Shown here: piece by piece, positions 23,545 to 60,800 of the stretch
Layout of the letters: every line of letters starts with the position of its first letter
Position numbering within the stretch: the stretch's first letter is position 1
Assembly: GCA_032139905.1 (NCBI GenBank)
Contig: JAQJDB010000006.1
Location: forward strand, 930,001-994,000
Direction: 5' to 3'
Length of the DNA stretch: 64,000 bases
From: Nitrospira sp. MA-1
Lineage (GTDB): Bacteria > Nitrospirota > Nitrospiria > Nitrospirales > UBA8639
The notes under the pieces: generated by a model
Seen by the model: only the letters and a program-made list of their open reading frames with translations
Told to the model about the DNA's origin: nothing
Databases searched by the model: none
Translations under genes and position numbers: made by a program

Positions 23545-23717
23545 ATGCTTAATTCTAACGATAAATCAACAATATATAATATCAATTGTCTAAGCGATAT
23601 AGCTTCAAAAAAGGAGCGTAATATTGTTTTTTGGATTGGCGCAGGCGCAAGTAAGTGGCGCGGTAGAAGTGGACCCCGATTTCTGGACAGGGCGCTAAGT
23701 GAAACTTCTGCTGGGCA

Positions 23718-24563
23718 TTATGCCGCCTTCGTTGCCATTGGACCTGCCCAATATACGGTATCCGGTGTCTGTCGATTCAAGGACTGGTGACGGCGTTCCG
23801 TGTTATAGAACGTGAAATAGCCAGTCAGCCCAGCCCGTAGCGCTGCGGGCGTCTCATAGGCTCGCAGGTACACGTCCTCATACTTCACACTGCGCCATAG
23901 TCGTTCGACGAATACGTTGTCGACCCAACGCCCCTTACCATCCATACTGATTTGCACCCCACGATCTTTGAGTGTCGCGGTGAATGCCTCACTGGTATAT
24001 TGGGCACCCTGATCCGTATTGAAGATCTCTGGCGCCCCATAGCGCAAGAGGGCTTCTTCCAGCGCCTCCACACAGGCATCCGTTTCCAGCGTATTCGAAA
24101 CGCGCCACGCCAACACCCGACGTGAGTACCAGTCTATGATGGCGGTGAGATACATGAACCCCTTGGCCATCGGGATATAACAGATATCACTCGCCCACAC
24201 CTGGTTTGGACGTTCAATTCTCAGGCCTCTTAATAAGTAGGGATAAATTTTGTGCCCCAGTCCTGGTTGACTCGTTCGCGGCTTCGGGTAAATCGCTCGG
24301 ATCCCCATCTTGCGCATCAACCGTTGAACGCGTTTACGATTCACTCTATGGCCCTGTTGTTGAAGCTCAACACACAGGCGACGGCTGCCATAGAACGGCC
24401 ATTTCAGATAGAGCTCGTCGAGTTGGCGCATCAAAACAAGGTCTGCCGCTGAGACATCCTGGGGCCGTGCATAGGCACTCGAACGCGGCACGGCTAACAG
24501 CTGACATTGACGAGTCACCGAAAGTCCTTGCTGGGCCTTGAGCATCGCTTTGCGCTCAGTCAT
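23718..24563 (-). CDS. IS3-family transposase OrfB, IS-beta copy 1
   Basis: A 281-residue rve-type transposase. DDE core: Asp in VWASDICYIPM, Asp in IFNTDQGAQYTS, Glu in FVERLWRSVKYEDVY. An HTH_21 region (LKWPFYGSRRLCVEL) precedes it. Start ATGA overlaps the orfA stop. Identical to the protein at 55876-56721. Confidence 0.95.
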   Translation of the reverse strand: MTERKAMLKAQQGLSVTRQCQLLAVPRSSAYARPQDVSAADLVLMRQLDELYLKWPFYGSRRLCVELQQQGHRVNRKRVQRLMRKMGIRAIYPKPRTSQPGLGHKIYPYLLRGLRIERPNQVWASDICYIPMAKGFMYLTAIIDWYSRRVLAWRVSNTLETDACVEALEEALLRYGAPEIFNTDQGAQYTSEAFTATLKDRGVQISMDGKGRWVDNVFVERLWRSVKYEDVYLRAYETPAALRAGLTGYFTFYNTERRHQSLNRQTPDTVYWAGPMATKAA

Positions 24564-24871
24564 CGGCCGGGTCCGAGCGCGGTGGCTAAAAAATCCTTCT
24601 CCATGGTCAGCTGGCCAATCTTGGCATGCAGCTTCTGCTGGACCTGTTCATGGTCGGCAGCAGCAACGAGACTGGCGCCAAAAACATGTTCTGCCTTGCT
24701 CAGCAGCTGCTTCTTCCAATCTTGGATCTGATTCGGATGTACGTCAAACTGCTCGGCCAATTCCGCCAACGTGCGTTCGCCCTTGACGGCGGCCAAGGCC
24801 ACCTTGGCCTTAAACGCTGGGGAATGATTCCGTCGGGATCGTCGTGCCATCTTCTGCTCCTTTCGTTGCAA
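24560..24871 (-). CDS. IS3-family transposase OrfA, IS-beta copy 1
   Basis: A 103-residue HTH protein (HSPAFKAKVALAAVKGERTL … HPNQIQDWKKQLL). A T-TTT-TTA heptamer near the 3' end could allow the -1 frameshift to OrfB. GAAAGGAGCAGAAG precedes the start. Confidence 0.93.
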   Translation of the reverse strand: MQRKEQKMARRSRRNHSPAFKAKVALAAVKGERTLAELAEQFDVHPNQIQDWKKQLLSKAEHVFGASLVAAADHEQVQQKLHAKIGQLTMEKDFLATALGPGR

Positions 24872-27033
24872 ACAAATATAGCGCAGAAGATTTCACTTAG
24901 CATCCTCATTATTCTGTCCAAGGACTGGGGACCACTTCTGGTTACAAACTTTGGGGTGAGCTTGCTTCTTTTATGCACAGTGGTTATCTACGATATGAAG
25001 AAAGCTATGATAAAGAAATAGCAATTAAATTATTAGAATTTTTTGAATACCCTAAGTTTTTTTCATATTGCAAATCAATATCGAAACAAAGATATCATAC
25101 TATTTTATCTGAAGAATTATCCCTTAAAAAAACCACTCCTGTATACGAAAGATTTTGTCAAATTATTCAGGGCATAAATCCATCCTATATATTAACCACG
25201 AATGTTGATGGATGTTTAGAAACAAGCCTAGAAGGTTGTGAGTTAATTGAAAAAACCGATATCGAAAGAATAATACCTCAAATCAAAATTAATAAATCAT
25301 TTATTTGTAAGTTGCACGGTTCGATAAGCTCTATTGAGTCGATTGTCTTTACAGAGGAAGATTATAAAGAATTGTTATCTAATAATGCTTATCAAAATAT
25401 TTTAAAAAATATTTTGATGGAGTCATGCGTTGTCTTTATTGGGTATAGTATGGCTGATGAATATTTAATGAAAATTATATCGGAGAATAACGATATTAAA
25501 GAGTTATTTGGTGATGGCCCGCATTTTCTTGTTTCATCTAGCGATAACAATAATTTACCAATAAGCGTTAAAACTATTAAATACTTCAATGATATCCATG
25601 CAGACCATAGGTCCTCTATTCTTGTGGCCGACATAATCAAATCAAAACGTAATATAGTAGTTACTGATGATTATGCTTATGTTAATAAAAAATCTCAGTA
25701 CAAAAGCTCATATTATATCTCTGACGTTATTCCACCTGGACTTTGGACAAGCTCTTATACTTTTGTAGTAAAAGGTGCTGATGAAATTGAGAGAAATATG
25801 ATTGTCGGTACTGGGTTTAATAATAGTGAGCTCAGTTCATCTGTGTCCACTGCAATGCACGATTTAGTAGTTGGGCTTATTTGCTTTGATCATATATATC
25901 TTCCGTTGGCATCAATCACCAAAATTTATAATCTGTTTGGTTCAGTATTATTTTGGAATTTAATAGAAGAAGACTCTCTTAGATTCGTGGCTCACCAGAT
26001 TGATGCAGCGGTTATATATCCTAATAAAGAAGATATAACTGGGGGTGACATTGGGATAGTCTCAATATTGAATCAAACTGCATCTAAACCTATTTCGGGT
26101 ACAGAAGAAATTCGAAAAAGTTTAGCTGCTGTACCAGGGTACGAGGACATTACTGAGGCAAGATTTGCATTATTAGCGTCCAAAATAGAAAGTTTCGAAA
26201 ACAGCCCAGGTGTGAACATTGCCGATGTAATAAGAAGTAGCCTTTTATATCCTAGTGTAAAAGAATTACTTGGCATTAGTGATGCAGTTATTCCAACCAG
26301 CGTTCCAAAGTGGCATGTATTTTCTGTTTTGAGAGTTGCACATATTATTATGGCTGGTGTGACTTGTGAAAAACTTAATATCCCAGCGTTGAAAATACAC
26401 TTTGGCGGAAATATTTTGGCAGGAGTTATATTTTCTGCTGTCGCAGCAAGGAATTGGGCAGCGGAAGCGGCGAGTTACGTTGTGACTGGAAGGTTTTCAT
26501 CTGACCTTGGTGGTGCTGTATTGAATGATCCTGGTTTAATGCAAGGAATATTGAAATTTAGAAACACACAAAATGGTATGTCGCTTAGAAAAGAAATATT
26601 AAATGAGTTATCTGTGAATGAAGGGGGTGAGGTAGTGACTTCAATTGAGGCTGGTTTGAGGCATTGTCTCCCTAATGCTATTTTAGAAAATGCGCGTGAT
26701 GAATTGTCGAGTTTTCTTTTGGCAGAAAAAGGTTCAAAAGTAATTCCAGCTATATGGGGTAACCCTGCTCATGATGACAAAGCATTAAAGCTTTGGCGTA
26801 TAAGAAGTGATGCAGAGTTTAAGAAATTTTGCAATGTAAATAAAATAGGTGCATATGATGCTTGTCCTTGCGGTTCAGGCGAAAAGTTAAAATTTTGTTG
26901 TTCTAATTCATTTAACTTAAATTAAGGAACAATGAAAATCAATTGGGATCTGAGATCAATGGTTTCTAGTAAACTAATTAAATGCGAATTAAATGATACT
27001 GCCCCCTTAAGTGCTAACAGTTAAACATGAAAT

Positions 27034-37219: not shown

Positions 37220-38044
37220 ATGATCCACGGGTTGAGCTTCGATATTGAAGAACATTTTCAGGTTGCTGCCTTTGATTGTGTGGCCCGCCGTCGCCATTGG
37301 GAGAGACATGAAAGCCGGGTAGAGCGTAACACTCATCTTATCCTGGATCTCCTGGAGAAGCAGGGGATTCATGCCACGATGTTTGTGCTGGGTTGGGTGG
37401 CCGAACGACACAAGGGGTTAATCAGGCGTATTGTGGAGTCGGGGCATGAATTGGCCTCTCATGGGTATGGGCACGAACTCATTACAGGGCAAACGCCTCA
37501 GGCGTTTCGGGAAGATATTCGCCAAGCCAAACATATTTTGGAAGATATTGGAGGGGTGCCCATCATCGGTTACCGTGCCCCGACCTTCTCGATTACGAAG
37601 GAATCGGAATGGGCCTTGCCGATTCTTGTAGAGGAAGGGTACCACTATGATTCCAGTATCATGGCCGTCGTGCACGATTACTATGGAATTCCTGGGGCCA
37701 TCCCAACCATTCACACCATCTCCACCGATTCAGGGCCAATTTGGGAGGTGCCACCGTCAACCTGTAAATGGGCAGGGATGACCTTTCCGGTTGCAGGAGG
37801 CGGATATTTTCGTCTGTTTCCTTATCGGTTGCTCAAGCCACTCCTGCAGCGAATCGAATCACAGGGGCATCCGCTTATTATGTACCTCCATCCGTGGGAG
37901 CTGGACCCTACTCAACCCCGTATGAGGGGCTCCATGCTTTCAGAGTTTCGTCATTACTTGAATCTCGAAAAGGTTCATGGTCGTCTCATTCAACTCATTC
38001 AGGATTTTTCCTTCGGGCCGTATCGCAATCTCATTACCTCCTAA
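37220..38044 (+). CDS. XrtA-type polysaccharide deacetylase
   Basis: A 274-residue NodB-fold deacetylase. Metal/catalytic residues: Asp-Glu in LSFDIEEHFQ and the HxxxH motif in ELASHGYGHEL; further conserved GYRAPTFSIT and the C-terminal DUF3473-like YLHPWELDP. This combination is typical of the deacetylases of exosortase-A-linked exopolysaccharide loci. Removes N-acetyl groups from the polymer or a lipid-linked precursor. No signal peptide, as usual for this family. Confidence 0.9.
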   Translation: MIHGLSFDIEEHFQVAAFDCVARRRHWERHESRVERNTHLILDLLEKQGIHATMFVLGWVAERHKGLIRRIVESGHELASHGYGHELITGQTPQAFREDIRQAKHILEDIGGVPIIGYRAPTFSITKESEWALPILVEEGYHYDSSIMAVVHDYYGIPGAIPTIHTISTDSGPIWEVPPSTCKWAGMTFPVAGGGYFRLFPYRLLKPLLQRIESQGHPLIMYLHPWELDPTQPRMRGSMLSEFRHYLNLEKVHGRLIQLIQDFSFGPYRNLITS

Positions 38045-51703: not shown

Positions 51704-52852
51704 ATGATGCCAGTGAACATACAGGTAGTGAGATCGAGTCAAGATTTGGACCGCTTGGGCCCGGTCTGGGACGAGGTAGCGAGAACCAACACTACCTGTC
51801 CTCCCTGGGCCACATATGATTGGTTTAGCTCATGGTACTACGCGTCTTCCGAAGCGATTAGTCCTTTCATTATCCTATTTCTGGAAAATGGAAAGCCCAT
51901 CGGTCTGGCACCGCTTGTACGAACTGTAGTCAGGCACTATGGGATGTCGTTTGTTCAGCTAGGCTTTGTATCTGACACTAATCCCAATGAAATAATCATT
52001 GGTCAGTCTGATCAATCCCGGTGTGTTGCGGCATTCTTCTCGTACCTTTATGAGGCGGAAAACGAATGGGATGTCATGAAATTGCGGGGCTTGAAGAAAC
52101 AGTCAACGACAATGCATTTATTAGAGGATTTTTTGAAGAAAAATCCACGTAGATGGATATGGGATACCAGTATTGAATCACCCTTCTTGCCTATTAAAAC
52201 TGACTGGGAGAATTACTACAAAAATCTTTCAAAAAATCTTCGAAATTCTATACGTAGGGGTATCAAGGATATTCAGAAGTGCGGAACGCTCAAGACGTTA
52301 GATTATTCAACCCCTGATAGGGTAGACGTAGGAATTGAAATTATTTATGAAATATCCGAACGGAGCTGGCAGGCTCAAGAGGGCACTGATATTTCCTCAG
52401 GCAAGGACGGTCGATTTTATGCTTCCTTTGCGAAAGCGGCGGCCGATCGTGGGTGGTTGAATCTCAAAATTCTATTTCTCGATGACCATCCCATAGCCTT
52501 TGAATACAATATATGTTTTGGAGGTACCGTGTACGAACTCAAGTCTGGCTACGACCAAGCTTATCGGCAATTTTCCCCGGGGAAAATATTAATGAGGTAC
52601 AACGTCGAGTATTTTATTTCCAATAAATTCAGTGAAATTGATTTTATGGGGGCGTCAGATGACTATAAGCTGCAGTGGACAAAGCTGGTTTGCCCATATA
52701 CGAACCTCTGGATGTATGCACAAAAGAAGAAGTCGATGGTCCATTACTTCATAAGAGCCAAAATTATTTCAAAAGTTAGGCACTATAAGAGCATTAAAAA
52801 GCTTCAGCGTAAGATTAGTCGCCTAGGGAGCAGACCCGACAAACAACTATAG
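51704..52852 (+). CDS. FemAB/GNAT-like acyl- or aminoacyltransferase 1
   Basis: A 382-residue Acetyltransf_6 (BioF2-like) protein. C-terminal GNAT-like segment: AFEYNICFGGTVYELKSGYD, SPGKILMRYNVEYFI and EIDFMGASDDYKLQWTK. Proteins of this type attach acyl or amino-acid groups to amino sugars. With its neighbour at 52910 and the ligase/carrier pair it suggests a peptide- or acyl-decorated polymer. ATG-ATG start after AAAAGGATG. Confidence 0.82.
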   Translation: MMPVNIQVVRSSQDLDRLGPVWDEVARTNTTCPPWATYDWFSSWYYASSEAISPFIILFLENGKPIGLAPLVRTVVRHYGMSFVQLGFVSDTNPNEIIIGQSDQSRCVAAFFSYLYEAENEWDVMKLRGLKKQSTTMHLLEDFLKKNPRRWIWDTSIESPFLPIKTDWENYYKNLSKNLRNSIRRGIKDIQKCGTLKTLDYSTPDRVDVGIEIIYEISERSWQAQEGTDISSGKDGRFYASFAKAAADRGWLNLKILFLDDHPIAFEYNICFGGTVYELKSGYDQAYRQFSPGKILMRYNVEYFISNKFSEIDFMGASDDYKLQWTKLVCPYTNLWMYAQKKKSMVHYFIRAKIISKVRHYKSIKKLQRKISRLGSRPDKQL

Positions 52853-52909
52853 ATATTGGTCGCTTGCAATGGTACTTGCCGGCCCGAGGGCATTACAGGA
52901 GACTGTGAC

Positions 52910-54028
52910 ATGAAATTGAAGATCAAGAGAATCCAGACCTATAAAGAATTGGACGGCTTAAAGGTAATCTGGGAAGAATTTCAGAACGCTAAAAATGGGC
53001 CATCGGTATTTCAATCGTGGACCTGGAATCGTGCATGGTGTGAGGAAGTTCTCCAATCACAAAAATATGCCAATTTAGATGTCCGGGTGGCAGAAGAATC
53101 AAATGGAAAGATAGTAGCTATTCTACCAACGTATCTCGACAAAAGGACGATACCGGGAATTTCCACACTGCAATTCCTTGCCCACCGGATGTCGATCTAC
53201 AACGATATACTACTCTGTGAGCCTGAAAATCAGGAACTTGCCCTGGCTGTAGCTGAATCGCTCATTGAATCCCTCGGTCCAACTACCATAGTCCACCTCC
53301 GTCACTTGGGAGGGGAGTCAACCTTCACAAAGGCACTTCTCCTGAAGAATTGGGCGCAGATTCAGTGCCCACGATTATTGCTGAGGAATGATCCCGCTAT
53401 CACCGATCAAAGCAAACGCCTTGGTCAGACAAGGCGAAAAGCTTTTCGTTCAGCGCATAATCGACTAATGAAAGAGTATTCGATCGAATACCGGGTAGTT
53501 AAGTCGCAGGACTTCAGTCCTGCCATGAGTGAACTCATTGAACTTCATTTGCGACGATTTGACGCAAAAGGCCAGTCCAGTTTGTTGCAGGGGCAAACTC
53601 TTCCATTTCTTCAACGGGCCATGCAAGATAGCACGAACCGGAATCAATTTGAGATCGTCCAGCTTCGAGCTAATGACACCACAGTGGCAGCCGTCTTAAT
53701 GGTAAAGGATCGAAAGAGTTATATTTACTTTCAAGGCGGTTTTGAACCAGAGTTTTCCCGTTATTCACCCATGCGCCTTCTTTTAACAGAGACGATTCGT
53801 AGAGGTTTTGAGGAACTCGGCTGTGAAGTTTATGACTTAGGTGATGGTTACGGGACCTACAAGTGCGACTGGTCGCCAACAGCTGCTATGAATTATTTCT
53901 GTTGTCGAGGTAATAATCCCCTCTACGCAAATGTTTTTGCGACAGCAACAAGATATGCATTTCAGCGGAGAACCTTGAGCTGTCTTTCCGAAGAAGTCCT
54001 AGAATTATCTGGAATTCAACCGCACTAG
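52910..54028 (+). CDS. FemAB/GNAT-like acyl- or aminoacyltransferase 2
   Basis: A 372-residue paralog-type protein of the same fold. ATG 52910 follows CAGGAGACTGTGAC, better than the frame opening at 52856. C-terminal domain: SYIYFQGGFEPEFSRYSPMRLLLTETI and CEVYDLGDGYGTYKCDW. N-terminal FQSWTWNRAWCEEV is typical. Likely a second decoration step, maybe acting on the product of the first enzyme. Confidence 0.82.
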   Translation: MKLKIKRIQTYKELDGLKVIWEEFQNAKNGPSVFQSWTWNRAWCEEVLQSQKYANLDVRVAEESNGKIVAILPTYLDKRTIPGISTLQFLAHRMSIYNDILLCEPENQELALAVAESLIESLGPTTIVHLRHLGGESTFTKALLLKNWAQIQCPRLLLRNDPAITDQSKRLGQTRRKAFRSAHNRLMKEYSIEYRVVKSQDFSPAMSELIELHLRRFDAKGQSSLLQGQTLPFLQRAMQDSTNRNQFEIVQLRANDTTVAAVLMVKDRKSYIYFQGGFEPEFSRYSPMRLLLTETIRRGFEELGCEVYDLGDGYGTYKCDWSPTAAMNYFCCRGNNPLYANVFATATRYAFQRRTLSCLSEEVLELSGIQPH

Positions 54029-54982: not shown

Positions 54983-55499
54983 CTCGTGAATCCTTTTGCC
55001 GAACCCGGTTCGATCGCGTGAACTGCCAATGAAAACAACCTATCGCTGGACCATAATTATGTCAAGGCGAGCCTGATAATTGAGTGAATTGGGAATAACA
55101 CATCGCAAATACTTGGGACCGCATAGAGTGTGCCGAATGATCATGGACCACTCACTAATTTTCGCGCACCTTCACAGGGTCTGTGCAGAGCTCTCATTGC
55201 TGGTATACAAATTTCTTCGCTTTTACTCCACATTCCAGATTCTCAGGGGTTTGGATCGTACCCCACGTTGTCGTGGCATTCAGCATAGTCCACTTTATTT
55301 GAACACTCCACGTTCCTCCTTAAATGGAAAGTGGTCCAAGGAACGACTCGACTTTAGTTGTCGACAACAGGGTGACATACGCCCCCTCGGGTGTTTGTCA
55401 CCCTGGGCCTGATAGTGGCTACTGGTATTGTTTAAGGCAATACGGCCTCTGTTCTTGTGTAAACTCAATTGTGATCTCATAGGCGTGCAAGTTCAGATC
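54983..55499. other. Intergenic region before IS-beta copy 2
   Basis: About 515 bases with no supported gene. Holds a strong hairpin at 55368-55405. The IS begins directly after. Confidence 0.4.
55368..55405 (+). repeat. Perfect 10-base inverted repeat (hairpin)
   Basis: CAGGGTGACA (55368) and TGTCACCCTG (55396) enclose an 18-base loop. There is no T run, so it is not a simple terminator. Confidence 0.6.
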
Positions 55500-55567
55500 A
55501 GAAGTGGTCCCCAGTCCTTGGACAGAATAATGAGGATGCTAAGTGAAATCTTCTGCGCTATATTTGT

Positions 55568-55879
55568 TTGCAACGAAAGGAGCAGAAGATGGCACGACGA
55601 TCCCGACGGAATCATTCCCCAGCGTTTAAGGCCAAGGTGGCCTTGGCCGCCGTCAAGGGCGAACGCACGTTGGCGGAATTGGCCGAGCAGTTTGACGTAC
55701 ATCCGAATCAGATCCAAGATTGGAAGAAGCAGCTGCTGAGCAAGGCAGAACATGTTTTTGGCGCCAGTCTCGTTGCTGCTGCCGACCATGAACAGGTCCA
55801 GCAGAAGCTGCATGCCAAGATTGGCCAGCTGACCATGGAGAAGGATTTTTTAGCCACCGCGCTCGGACCCGGCCGATGA
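55568..55879 (+). CDS. IS3-family transposase OrfA, IS-beta copy 2
   Basis: Identical 103-residue protein to that at 24560-24871. HTH domain, then the T-TTT-TTA heptamer at 55846-55852 as a possible -1 frameshift site into OrfB. Confidence 0.93.
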   Translation: MQRKEQKMARRSRRNHSPAFKAKVALAAVKGERTLAELAEQFDVHPNQIQDWKKQLLSKAEHVFGASLVAAADHEQVQQKLHAKIGQLTMEKDFLATALGPGR

Positions 55880-56721
55880 CTGAGCGCAAAGCGATGCTCA
55901 AGGCCCAGCAAGGACTTTCGGTGACTCGTCAATGTCAGCTGTTAGCCGTGCCGCGTTCGAGTGCCTATGCACGGCCCCAGGATGTCTCAGCGGCAGACCT
56001 TGTTTTGATGCGCCAACTCGACGAGCTCTATCTGAAATGGCCGTTCTATGGCAGCCGTCGCCTGTGTGTTGAGCTTCAACAACAGGGCCATAGAGTGAAT
56101 CGTAAACGCGTTCAACGGTTGATGCGCAAGATGGGGATCCGAGCGATTTACCCGAAGCCGCGAACGAGTCAACCAGGACTGGGGCACAAAATTTATCCCT
56201 ACTTATTAAGAGGCCTGAGAATTGAACGTCCAAACCAGGTGTGGGCGAGTGATATCTGTTATATCCCGATGGCCAAGGGGTTCATGTATCTCACCGCCAT
56301 CATAGACTGGTACTCACGTCGGGTGTTGGCGTGGCGCGTTTCGAATACGCTGGAAACGGATGCCTGTGTGGAGGCGCTGGAAGAAGCCCTCTTGCGCTAT
56401 GGGGCGCCAGAGATCTTCAATACGGATCAGGGTGCCCAATATACCAGTGAGGCATTCACCGCGACACTCAAAGATCGTGGGGTGCAAATCAGTATGGATG
56501 GTAAGGGGCGTTGGGTCGACAACGTATTCGTCGAACGACTATGGCGCAGTGTGAAGTATGAGGACGTGTACCTGCGAGCCTATGAGACGCCCGCAGCGCT
56601 ACGGGCTGGGCTGACTGGCTATTTCACGTTCTATAACACGGAACGCCGTCACCAGTCCTTGAATCGACAGACACCGGATACCGTATATTGGGCAGGTCCA
56701 ATGGCAACGAAGGCGGCATAA
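55876..56721 (+). CDS. IS3-family transposase OrfB, IS-beta copy 2
   Basis: Identical 281-residue DDE transposase to that at 23718-24563: WASDICYIP, FNTDQGAQYTS, FVERLWRSVKY. In the -1 frame relative to OrfA with an ATGA overlap. Confidence 0.95.
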   Translation: MTERKAMLKAQQGLSVTRQCQLLAVPRSSAYARPQDVSAADLVLMRQLDELYLKWPFYGSRRLCVELQQQGHRVNRKRVQRLMRKMGIRAIYPKPRTSQPGLGHKIYPYLLRGLRIERPNQVWASDICYIPMAKGFMYLTAIIDWYSRRVLAWRVSNTLETDACVEALEEALLRYGAPEIFNTDQGAQYTSEAFTATLKDRGVQISMDGKGRWVDNVFVERLWRSVKYEDVYLRAYETPAALRAGLTGYFTFYNTERRHQSLNRQTPDTVYWAGPMATKAA

Positions 56722-56869
56722 TGCCCAGCAGAAGTTTCACTTAGCGCCCTGTCCAGAAATCGGGGTCCACTTCTATCTTTAAATTAACTGAGCACCTCAG
56801 TCATTCAACAATAACAATGTCAGTACAGGTTCCTCTTCCGTTAATGCGCACGTAAATAATTTTATCTTT

Positions 56870-57340: not shown

Positions 57341-57915
57341 AGTTAAAGTGGTCTTTCACCTTGAGGTTCGGAGAGGGAAAATGCCGCGCGCTTTGCATCT
57401 TCAGAAATATTGGTTAAAAGGAAACATACTGCAGAAAATTTCCCTGAGAATCCCATGCTTTCTGTCTATGGTTGCAGTGGTCTTCCTGACTATCGACTTA
57501 GTCAAGTATTCGTTTTATGCTAATTACTGAATTTAATTAATGCTACGAGGCCCATTAGCCTCGCCGGTTTTTGGCCATGGAAAGCATCTACGGGGAGGTT
57601 GGATATGTGGCATGTATGGTTAATATATTGTCCCGGGTTTTTTGGAGCGGTCTGATGAAGCGTACAATTCTAGTTTGAAGCGTGAACGTCCATGAGTTCC
57701 TTTCCAACTCTGGGTGCCAGCAACGTCCTATTGGCAGCTAAAGGATTTCAGGCAGCGATCAGCAATACTTGGCGATAAAAAGTCACTGCCCAAAGCTGTG
57801 GCTAGTCACAAATTGTGGGAAAGATAATTGTGGGTACCGTGCCGGTGTCGCATCTTCTCATGATCTTAGTGCATTAAGAGCGTGTTCGAAAGGTGAGAAT
57901 TCTAAGGAGGGAAAA
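57341..57915. other. Intergenic region
   Basis: About 575 bases between the IS remnant and the methyltransferase. The frame of the next gene is open from 57769, but the good ribosome binding site places its start at 57916. Nothing else supported. Confidence 0.35.
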
Positions 57916-58923
57916 ATGATTGATGGAATGGTCAGCCGAATAACCGGCCTCGCAAAGAAGGTCATCATGTCTAATAAAGCTCTAGACAGGCTGTTTTATG
58001 ATTTTTCTAATATGGGGGAGTTTAGCAGTCTTTACCAGCATGAAAAAATGTTGGCAGACCATTTACGCGTCGATACCTATCATGACGCTATCCGTGCGCA
58101 TGTTAAGGCGGGAGATACGGTTATTGATCTGGGAACCGGTACGGGCATTCTTGCACTTTTTGCGGCACGACAAGGAGCCAAGGTTTACGCCATTGATCAT
58201 TCCAGTTTCATTGACATCGCACGGACAACAGCCGCAAAGAATGGTATCGACACCATCACATTCGTACGTTCTAACAGCCAGCGCTTCAATCCCCCGGAGA
58301 AAGTTGACTTCATCATACATGAACAAATGGGCGATGATCTGTTTAACGAGAATATGATACATAACCTGCTGGACTTGAAACGACGGGCTTTAAAGAGCAC
58401 CGGAAAGATTTTACCTGGGCGATTCGAACTGTTTCTGGAACCTGTTGCTCTGAAGAAAGGTCGCAGAATGCCCTTTCTCTGGGAGAAGCCTGTTACCGTG
58501 CGTGACCTTCCTCAGGGGGTTGACTTCAGCTTCTTGCGTGATCTTCCAGAAGCCAAGGCATTCCAACCACCTGGTTATATCCGACACATGGTGGAAGAAG
58601 CTGCAGTGGATTTTTTCCTTTGTGAGCCTCAGCCAATTATGACATTTGATCTGAATAAGATGGATGATGCCAGTACGGTACCAATGCATTGGCAGGCGAA
58701 CAAACGTGTTAATCGGGCTGGAGGTCTTGATGGATTTTGTCTGTACTTCCTGGCTGACTTTGGAGAGGGTTTTCAGCTTGACACTCGTCCTGGGCGTACC
58801 CATTGGCCAAACCGGCTTTTCCGAATGCCTCGTGTGGAGTATGCCGTTGGGGATACGATTCGATATGCAGTGCACGTCGGGGATATTAGGAGATCATATA
58901 CTTGGACCTTCACAGTTGAATAA
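57916..58923 (+). CDS. PRMT-like SAM-dependent methyltransferase
   Basis: A 335-residue protein, ATG 57916 with AAGGAGG six bases upstream. SAM motif VIDLGTGTGILALFAARQGAKVYAID matches the PRMT type; the double-Glu loop HEQMGDDLFNENM has Glu136 and Glu145 nine residues apart, as in protein arginine methyltransferases (E-W-MG-x-L-x-x-E-S-M); near the end GRTHWPNRLF has the THW motif. A beta-barrel-like C-terminal half follows. PRMT-like enzymes are uncommon in bacteria; the substrate might be a protein arginine, a guanidino group or another amine on the polymer. Confidence 0.82.
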   Translation: MIDGMVSRITGLAKKVIMSNKALDRLFYDFSNMGEFSSLYQHEKMLADHLRVDTYHDAIRAHVKAGDTVIDLGTGTGILALFAARQGAKVYAIDHSSFIDIARTTAAKNGIDTITFVRSNSQRFNPPEKVDFIIHEQMGDDLFNENMIHNLLDLKRRALKSTGKILPGRFELFLEPVALKKGRRMPFLWEKPVTVRDLPQGVDFSFLRDLPEAKAFQPPGYIRHMVEEAAVDFFLCEPQPIMTFDLNKMDDASTVPMHWQANKRVNRAGGLDGFCLYFLADFGEGFQLDTRPGRTHWPNRLFRMPRVEYAVGDTIRYAVHVGDIRRSYTWTFTVE

Positions 58924-59654
58924 ACGATACTGGCATGTATCCAACCAACCAACCAATCAATCCCAGAATTCTCAAACTAATTTGGACTTATTGGCCTAGA
59001 GGAATGGGAACTTTCCGCCTGAAAAGATAAATGAGTGAACAAGGTCTCAGGTATCCTGCGATAGAAATTTGAAGCTAAGAATAGCTGCAAAGGCTGCTCT
59101 TACTGAGGTCCCTTGTGCTGATTGCCTCCTGTATGAGGAGTTATCCTGGCTAAGGGGACAGTTGTTTCGCACAAGGTGCTCTTGTAAGGAGTGCGAAAAA
59201 ATCATGAGCAAAGCCAAAAGCATGCTTTCCCTTCGTTGGCCTGTCAATCTAATCCTGACGCCAACGCTCTAGAATTTTTATGATTAAACAGATTGGCCTC
59301 AATACTGGTTTCTTTGCAGCTACGTATTATTGATGAATGATTATGACTGCGTTTAAGGTTTTTATTTTGATGCACTGGTCTATTATTGATTTAGTTTTCT
59401 TATTCCATATTTTTATGGAAATGAACTTTTTTGCATTACCAGCGACTCCAACTTACTTCCTGGTACCTTGATATGCCTTAAGATTTGGCTTTTTCTCCGA
59501 ATGGAAGAAAGGGATTTCTTGGGGTAAAACCCATTCCTTTGAATCGCATCCAGCATGCTCCTGGTACGATGGCGTAGATTTTGCTTGCGCTTACAATCAG
59601 TTTTTAGTGAACCACAAATCTTACCACAGGTTGAAAAAACTAAACGGGGGCGAA
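58924..59654. other. Intergenic region
   Basis: About 730 bases. A 67-codon frame at 59069-59272 (containing CADCLLYEELSW and CSCKECEK) has cysteine pairs but no good start signal; I do not call it a gene. Short CCAACCAACCAACCAATCAA run near 58940. Confidence 0.35.
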
Positions 59655-60800
59655 ATGAAAATGGAAAAGAGCAAAACAGGAAAAGTGTCAATTTTGAAAA
59701 TTCAAGGAAGGCATGACGTATGTATCACAATGCGAATTTTATTCCTTGGAATTATAAGTTTGGCAATGCTAGGGCAGGCGTTTGCCCTTGATACGATTCC
59801 GGAAAAACTCTCTGATTGGACTGAAAAAGGGGTTGTTCTCCAAAACAGTTCAGGCGTTGCTTGGGAAAATAAACCTGGTATCGCCGTGAGTGGTATCTCG
59901 AAAGTGGGCGGGATCTATTATCTCCATTATCTCGCAGGGTTTAACGGGTGTTGGGATGCGGATGGTGATGTCAACCATCAATCTCTCGGTCTTGCCACCA
60001 GTACGGACGGAGTGAATTTTACGAAATTCACAGGTAATCCATTGTTGAAACCCCATGATTTTGTATCTGTAAGTTCCCAGGAAGAGGGGATCCGAACTGC
60101 GTATATTCAGTATCTTCCCTCGAAGGGGAAGTTTTACGGATACTTTGGTGTTGAATCGCCAGGGGGTTCTCAGACATGTAACTTTGGTGGTGGAGGAACC
60201 TGTGGATGTAATATTAGTGTTGATTCTCGGGTGTATGGAGCGACGTCGGTTGACGGGAAAGCTTGGACGGTGGAAGGGTCAGTCGGTGGCACATATTCCT
60301 CAAGTGGGAGCGAAGTCTATGCTGCAGGTTGGGTTTATGATAGCAGCCAATTTGGTCTGTACGTGACTACTGCTGAGGGTGGCCAGCTAAAATCTGCCTC
60401 TAGAGGATCAAATGCATGGAGCCTCAATGAATTGGGCGGTATCAGTGCATTGGACTGGGGCTGGTCCGGACTCGATGTCTATTTACACGATGATAACAAC
60501 ACTCTCACATTAATATATAATCCCCAGGGTGGTAGTCATCCCGGGAGTAGCAATGACAATCTGTATTTTGCTACCACTCACCTCGACGACATGAGGAACA
60601 TACAAAATGAGCGGGTCATCACGACATCAGGAGTACTACAAAATAAAATATTGCGGGATGGCAATGAATGGAAATGGTATTACAGTGATGACCCGAGTTG
60701 GAATAATAATGTCATCAGGCTTCGCACGCACCCGATTGCCAATTCAGACAATGTGCCACCCGAACCTCCCAAAAATCTGAATGTCGCGCCCATTCCTTAA
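59655..60800 (+). CDS. Secreted beta-propeller protein (glycosyl hydrolase 32/43-like fold)
   Basis: A 381-residue protein with start ATG 59655 after CGGGGGCGAA; a signal peptide appears at MRILFLGIISLAMLGQAFA, so the export signal is slightly internal unless ATG 59730 is the start. The mature part has repeated blades: GIYYLHYLAGF, LGLATSTDGVNFTKFTGNPLL, AYIQYLPSKGKFYGYFG, GATSVDGKAWTVEG, typical of five-bladed propeller glycosidases. Catalytic acids cannot be assigned with confidence. Extracellular cleavage or binding of the polymer is likely. Confidence 0.7.
   Translation: MKMEKSKTGKVSILKIQGRHDVCITMRILFLGIISLAMLGQAFALDTIPEKLSDWTEKGVVLQNSSGVAWENKPGIAVSGISKVGGIYYLHYLAGFNGCWDADGDVNHQSLGLATSTDGVNFTKFTGNPLLKPHDFVSVSSQEEGIRTAYIQYLPSKGKFYGYFGVESPGGSQTCNFGGGGTCGCNISVDSRVYGATSVDGKAWTVEGSVGGTYSSSGSEVYAAGWVYDSSQFGLYVTTAEGGQLKSASRGSNAWSLNELGGISALDWGWSGLDVYLHDDNNTLTLIYNPQGGSHPGSSNDNLYFATTHLDDMRNIQNERVITTSGVLQNKILRDGNEWKWYYSDDPSWNNNVIRLRTHPIANSDNVPPEPPKNLNVAPIP

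Follow-up and report, generated by a model that had tools for sequence, protein, structure and literature searches.

The window analysed here is a stretch of 64,000 nucleotides of Nitrospira sp. MA-1 that carries an exopolysaccharide locus, with an XrtA polysaccharide deacetylase gene at 37220 (TIGR03006, 354.8 bits, when compared with a cut-off of 276.2), export and chain-length genes recognised by eye, glycosyltransferases, two Acetyltransf_6 genes and a formyltransferase-like gene. Glycan genes flank an open reading frame of 335 codons with an ATG start and a TAA stop, whose product, resembling protein arginine methyltransferases (PRMTs), is referred to as P0001; the AAGGAGG directly upstream of its ATG is a strong ribosome-binding site. 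The features discussed below are the following.

51704..54028, + strand: two genes of the GNAT fold (Acetyltransf_6), with homologues near the PRMT-like gene in L049, L050, L034 and L033
54110..54982, - strand: formyltransferase-like gene, a neighbour conserved within the genus
55499..56775, + strand: insertion sequence, with a second copy of 100% identity at 23664-24940
57904..57911, + strand: ribosome-binding site AAGGAGGG of the PRMT-like gene, read from the sequence and kept in the sister genome G251
57916..58923, + strand: PRMT-like gene, coding for a predicted PRMT-fold methyltransferase of 335 residues (open reading frame, profile, model and fold comparison)
58039..58068, + strand: N-terminal helix motif HEKMLADHLR, residues 42-51, the equivalent of HEEMLKDEVR of PRMTs, with invariant Met45, Asp48 and Arg51
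58120..58146, + strand: motif I, VIDLGTGTG, residues 69-77, predicted to bind SAM (Pfam, alignment)
58318..58356, + strand: double-Glu loop HEQMGDDLFNENM, residues 135-147, with Glu136 and Glu145 (alignment, profile)
58798..58806, + strand: THW motif, residues 295-297 (sequence, alignment)
59607..60800, + strand: predicted secreted protein without a Pfam match, a neighbour kept in the sister genome

The gene order around the PRMT-like gene is common to the window and G251, where the open reading frame and its ribosome-binding site are also kept and the protein is 93% identical. When the two genomes are compared, the dN/dS value of the PRMT-like gene is 0.084, the second lowest among six genes (0.055-0.22 for the five neighbours), and this purifying selection indicates that the protein is very probably functional. 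The glycan genes and the insertion sequence that a preliminary description had placed on its flanks are both found. The insertion sequence at 55499-56775 sits in a stretch that is missing from G251, leaves the PRMT-like gene untouched and is a local insertion. The two 1277-base copies of this element, in opposite orientation and about 32 kb apart, bracket much of the exopolysaccharide locus.

The likeness of P0001 to PRMTs extends over nearly its whole length. In a phmmer search of the PDB the best match is PRMT2 (5.7e-26, aligned over residues 27-319), followed by PRMT10 (3r0q), PRMT6, PRMT8, PRMT1, CARM1 and PRMT3; 70 distinct PDB sequences are matched at E<=1e-3 and, among the 60 listed, nearly all are named PRMTs, which puts the likeness beyond chance. 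With a profile of 16 sequences the values become 3.3e-43 for 3r0q (Arabidopsis PRMT10), 3.8e-39 for 5g02 and 7.2e-39 for rat PRMT1, and the alignment to the PRMT structures is full length, taking in both the barrel and the THW loop. The Rossmann SAM domain is recognised by Methyltransf_25 (39.6 bits, cut-off 27). In the AlphaFold2 model (pLDDT 81.2, pTM 0.78) this domain is joined to a C-terminal β-barrel, the strands of which lie within residues 159-334; the segment at about residues 200-229, a candidate for the dimerisation arm, is of low confidence in this monomer model (pLDDT 52-57). A Foldseek search with the model finds zebrafish PRMT2 (4.2e-25, TM 0.72, 343 columns) and, more generally, PRMT2, PRMT6, PRMT3 and PRMT1 over about 300-343 columns, with E values of 4e-25 to 1e-21 and TM scores of 0.67-0.76; all 50 matches listed are PRMTs. 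P0001 itself has no match to the Pfam family PRMT_C (PF22528), but L032, a relative with 52% identity, exceeds the cut-off of this family (33.1 against 27 bits), as do more distant sister subfamilies. As judged from sequence and model, P0001 is a genuine member of the PRMT-fold family, barrel included, beyond the generic SAM fold. An assignment as PrmA or another named methyltransferase was rejected, the Pfam and NCBIfam matches spanning the Rossmann half only and every listed NCBIfam match of P0001 being under its cut-off; likewise rejected was a defence system, for which there is just one partial mad2 match, restricted to the Rossmann half.

The active-site motifs are also in agreement with this assignment. 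Motif I, the Glu136/Glu145 pair with its nine-residue spacing and the THW motif at 295-297 are all present where the preliminary description had placed them; its proposal of a PRMT-like enzyme is borne out by sequence profile, fold and conservation, and the structure prediction that it suggested as a check gives a barrel and, as far as model and alignment show, a Glu pair situated in the double-Glu loop. This loop aligns with SEWMGYCLFYESM of PRMT1 in the profile of 16 sequences. Across these sequences, which come from three bacterial groups, both glutamates are invariant, as are Met45, Asp48, Arg51, Asp94, His135, Gln137, Gly139, Asp140 and Met147, and motif I is near-invariant. The surroundings of the first glutamate are not those of type I PRMTs: the signature HEQ[MI]GD replaces SEWMGY, such that Ser, Trp and Tyr become His, Gln and Asp, all three invariant within the clade. 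The THW motif, regarded in the preliminary description as a hallmark, is intact in P0001, but its histidine is variable in the clade, being Ser, Cys or Asn in L004, L033 and L041, with the tryptophan kept; the equivalents in relatives are TSW, TCW, TNW and PHW.

Met45 and Met147 are presumably the counterparts of Met48 and Met155 of PRMT1, and we take Phe36 and Asp94 to occupy the positions of Tyr39 and Glu100 of PRMT1. The methionine pair of PRMT1 is tied to type I methylation, and its retention suggests type I-like methylation by P0001. The altered HEQMGD surround, together with Phe36, calls for caution as regards the substrate: on this sequence evidence, the pocket may not accept peptidyl-arginine.

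Nineteen close relatives, of 40-93% identity, are distributed patchily over probable Nitrospirota, Rhodospirillales and Opitutales. When scanning the phylum, a match at E<=1e-10 is found in 37 of 396 genomes, and just three of the 37 (G000, G251 and G247) have a close-clade gene that is intact; a collection scan added Aquibaculum, a second Rhodospirillales genome, a Nitrospiraceae MAG and 14 Opitutales/Verrucomicrobiota contigs. The gene is single copy, there being no second PRMT homologue above E 1e-8 in any of the 8 genomes tested. These counts, and the finding of PRMT_C in none of 14 named control genomes, agree with the notion that such enzymes are rare in bacteria, but this rarity is only relative, since every one of the 14 genomes listed for a single genus (g2), from the same family as the window genome, has PRMT_C. 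In another genome, of the same genus as the window genome, what remains of the close PRMT-like gene is interrupted by four in-frame stops (G367:C68:12905-13168), a case of gene decay. A plasmid or phage origin was considered and rejected, since a tblastn search of 72,556 plasmid and 50,697 phage records gave no match. A literature search found no paper on arginine methyltransferases with Nitrospira; for bacterial PRMTs, BlsL is the sole directly relevant case found, and Rv1988 is named as a histone arginine methyltransferase of mycobacteria.

Only in Nitrospirota loci does the PRMT-like gene retain its polysaccharide context. In G247 and L034 it also lies among polysaccharide genes, after the three-gene run described below; its neighbours in L034 share 74-77% identity with those in G247, a genome of the same taxonomic order as the window genome. 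Rhodospirillales and Opitutales relatives have unrelated neighbours, L033 with its GNAT-type gene being the exception, and the polysaccharide link of the preliminary description thus holds as a Nitrospirota habit and not as a rule of the family. No operon partner conserved across phyla is found, and no RiPP-like precursor, RiPP partner gene or conserved small open reading frame is recognised beside the PRMT-like gene. In two relatives, a three-gene run that the window genome lacks (L034:4524-7896 and L050:13492-16998) immediately precedes the close PRMT-like gene and codes for a 2'-5' RNA ligase-like protein, an Asn-synthetase-like protein and a protein of 357-376 residues; a GNAT gene also precedes the PRMT-like gene there.

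A sister group of the same order (group C: L009, L017, L022, L026, L027, L030, L031 and others) shares with P0001 the SAM motif and the PRMT fold, at about 28% identity, and matches PRMT_C. Unlike P0001, its members have ADQIG...A where the Glu pair would be, lack the THW motif and have a RiPP operon setting. The Glu-less gene adjoins a lasso-cyclase-like gene in 10 of the 12 genomes examined (just one of these cyclase-like genes is above the NCBIfam cut-off, the rest scoring lower), and an HprK-related kinase and an NTP_transf_5 gene come next in the loci examined. Precursor-like open reading frames with the pattern YxxPxLxxYGxxxxLT occupy the gap before the Glu-less gene in L055, L056 and L082, and apparent RRE and B2 protease genes are seen by eye in L056, where the predicted core peptide has no arginine. 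Lasso-peptide-like clusters with a Glu-less PRMT-fold protein are located at L055:6862-12488 and L056:10240-16499 and in L077-L084. The position of this sister group in lasso-peptide clusters suggests that the PRMT fold has been re-used for other jobs in the phylum. As far as covered here, the enzymes named in a review of lasso-peptide modifications are O-methyltransferases and those of the PIMT type, with no PRMT fold among them (PMC9266682).

The relation of these proteins to eukaryotic PRMTs was assessed with an unrooted tree of 36 rows, in which eukaryotes are represented by only four, though diverse, PRMTs taken from the PDB alignments. A branch with support of 100/99 sets off the clade of P0001, and another, also supported at 100/99 (100/98 in the drawing), sets off the four eukaryotic PRMTs; three further bacterial groups stand apart from both. 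The phylogeny therefore separates P0001 from the four eukaryotic sequences, against the transfer from eukaryotes raised in the preliminary description; as read from this tree, the close clade would be a bacterial lineage of its own and no recent eukaryotic gift. That the gene is a eukaryotic PRMT gained by horizontal transfer is highly improbable. The best solved relatives are indeed eukaryotic PRMT2 and plant PRMT10, but this ranking says little because the listed PDB matches are almost all eukaryotic. Moreover, the bacterial clades fall outside the branch holding the four eukaryotic PRMTs, and P0001 is 28-33% identical to its bacterial sister groups, no lower than to eukaryotic PRMTs. That the gene occurs so patchily, and that Rhodospirillales rows group with Nitrospirota rows in the tree, suggests that it has spread between bacteria by transfer.

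When compared with eukaryotic type I PRMTs (PRMT1, PRMT2, PRMT6 and plant PRMT10), P0001 has the whole fold, Rossmann half and barrel, as well as the HExML.D..R helix, motif I, the nine-spaced double Glu, a THW-like loop and the Met pair. It differs from them in having only about 25% identity, in the HEQ[MI]GD signature, in the variable THW histidine of its clade and in its place outside the eukaryotic clade, and from PRMT1 in the residues at the Tyr39 and Glu100 positions.

Beyond fold, conserved residues, selection and phylogenetic separation, we infer the activity, the methylation type and the substrate. On the evidence of sequence and model, P0001 is probably a SAM-dependent guanidino-N-methyltransferase, whose most likely substrate would be an arginine in a protein or peptide of the cell, the gene for which lies elsewhere in the genome. 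The Rossmann half would hold SAM, while Glu136 and Glu145 would clamp and activate the guanidinium group, such that a terminal nitrogen could attack the methyl group; the helix of residues 36-51 and the THW-like barrel loop would shut the pocket, and the products would be mono- and asymmetrically dimethylated arginine, as for type I enzymes. The same chemistry could also serve another target, either a free small-molecule guanidino group or a guanidino or arginyl group that decorates the exopolysaccharide, or its lipid, made by the surrounding XrtA-type locus; this is considered rather unlikely, though the most serious of the alternatives. It would suit the location of the gene in an XrtA-type exopolysaccharide locus with export, chain-length and glycosyltransferase genes, the GNAT, 2'-5' RNA ligase-like and Asn-synthetase-like genes that precede it in L034 and L050, and the clade-specific HEQxGD loop, which suits a different pocket. 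There is a bacterial precedent in BlsL, the SAM-dependent guanidine N-methyltransferase of blasticidin S, described as distantly PRMT/GAMT-like and reported to have low PRMT similarity (PMC5572114); BlsL, likened to P0001 by description only, acts on a small molecule and not, as in the leading reading for P0001, on protein or peptide arginine. Against such a target, the Rhodospirillales and Opitutales orthologues lie outside exopolysaccharide loci, no guanidino-sugar gene is recognised near the PRMT-like gene, and the window genome has no real counterpart of the Asn-synthetase-like module of L034 and L050, weak matches only being found. The more specific proposal that the HEQxGD clade equips a target other than protein with methylated guanidino groups, for example a guanidino-bearing component of the exopolysaccharide of the XrtA-type locus, is doubtful.

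It is also conceivable, if improbable, that the fold of P0001 has been repurposed for a target other than a guanidine, such as a carboxylate, an amine or a peptide side chain, as may be presumed for group C. The lasso-cluster setting of group C, with its replaced Glu pair and the one predicted core peptide that holds no Arg, speaks for such an idea, but the clade of P0001 retains both glutamates without exception and has no adjacent RiPP partners or conserved small open reading frame.

Arginine methylation is usually regarded as a eukaryotic trait. Here, a complete PRMT architecture with a strictly conserved catalytic pair occurs in free-living bacteria, outside the eukaryotic clade. This bacterial clade makes the origin of PRMTs testable, and hints at a bacterial guanidine methylation that has been overlooked in these groups, while the lasso-cluster sister group points to re-use of the PRMT fold in peptide natural products.

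A third PRMT-like group of the same family (L005, L008 and L011; VTETMGTFGFEEG, HW kept), the ETMGTFGFEEG-type PRMT_C group, resembles P0001 in fold, in both glutamates and in HW, at about 33% identity. Unlike P0001, it forms a separate deep clade and is found in all the listed g2 genomes, in some of them beside DNA ligase and other housekeeping genes. Given this presence and these neighbours, PRMT-like enzymes may be core in g2.
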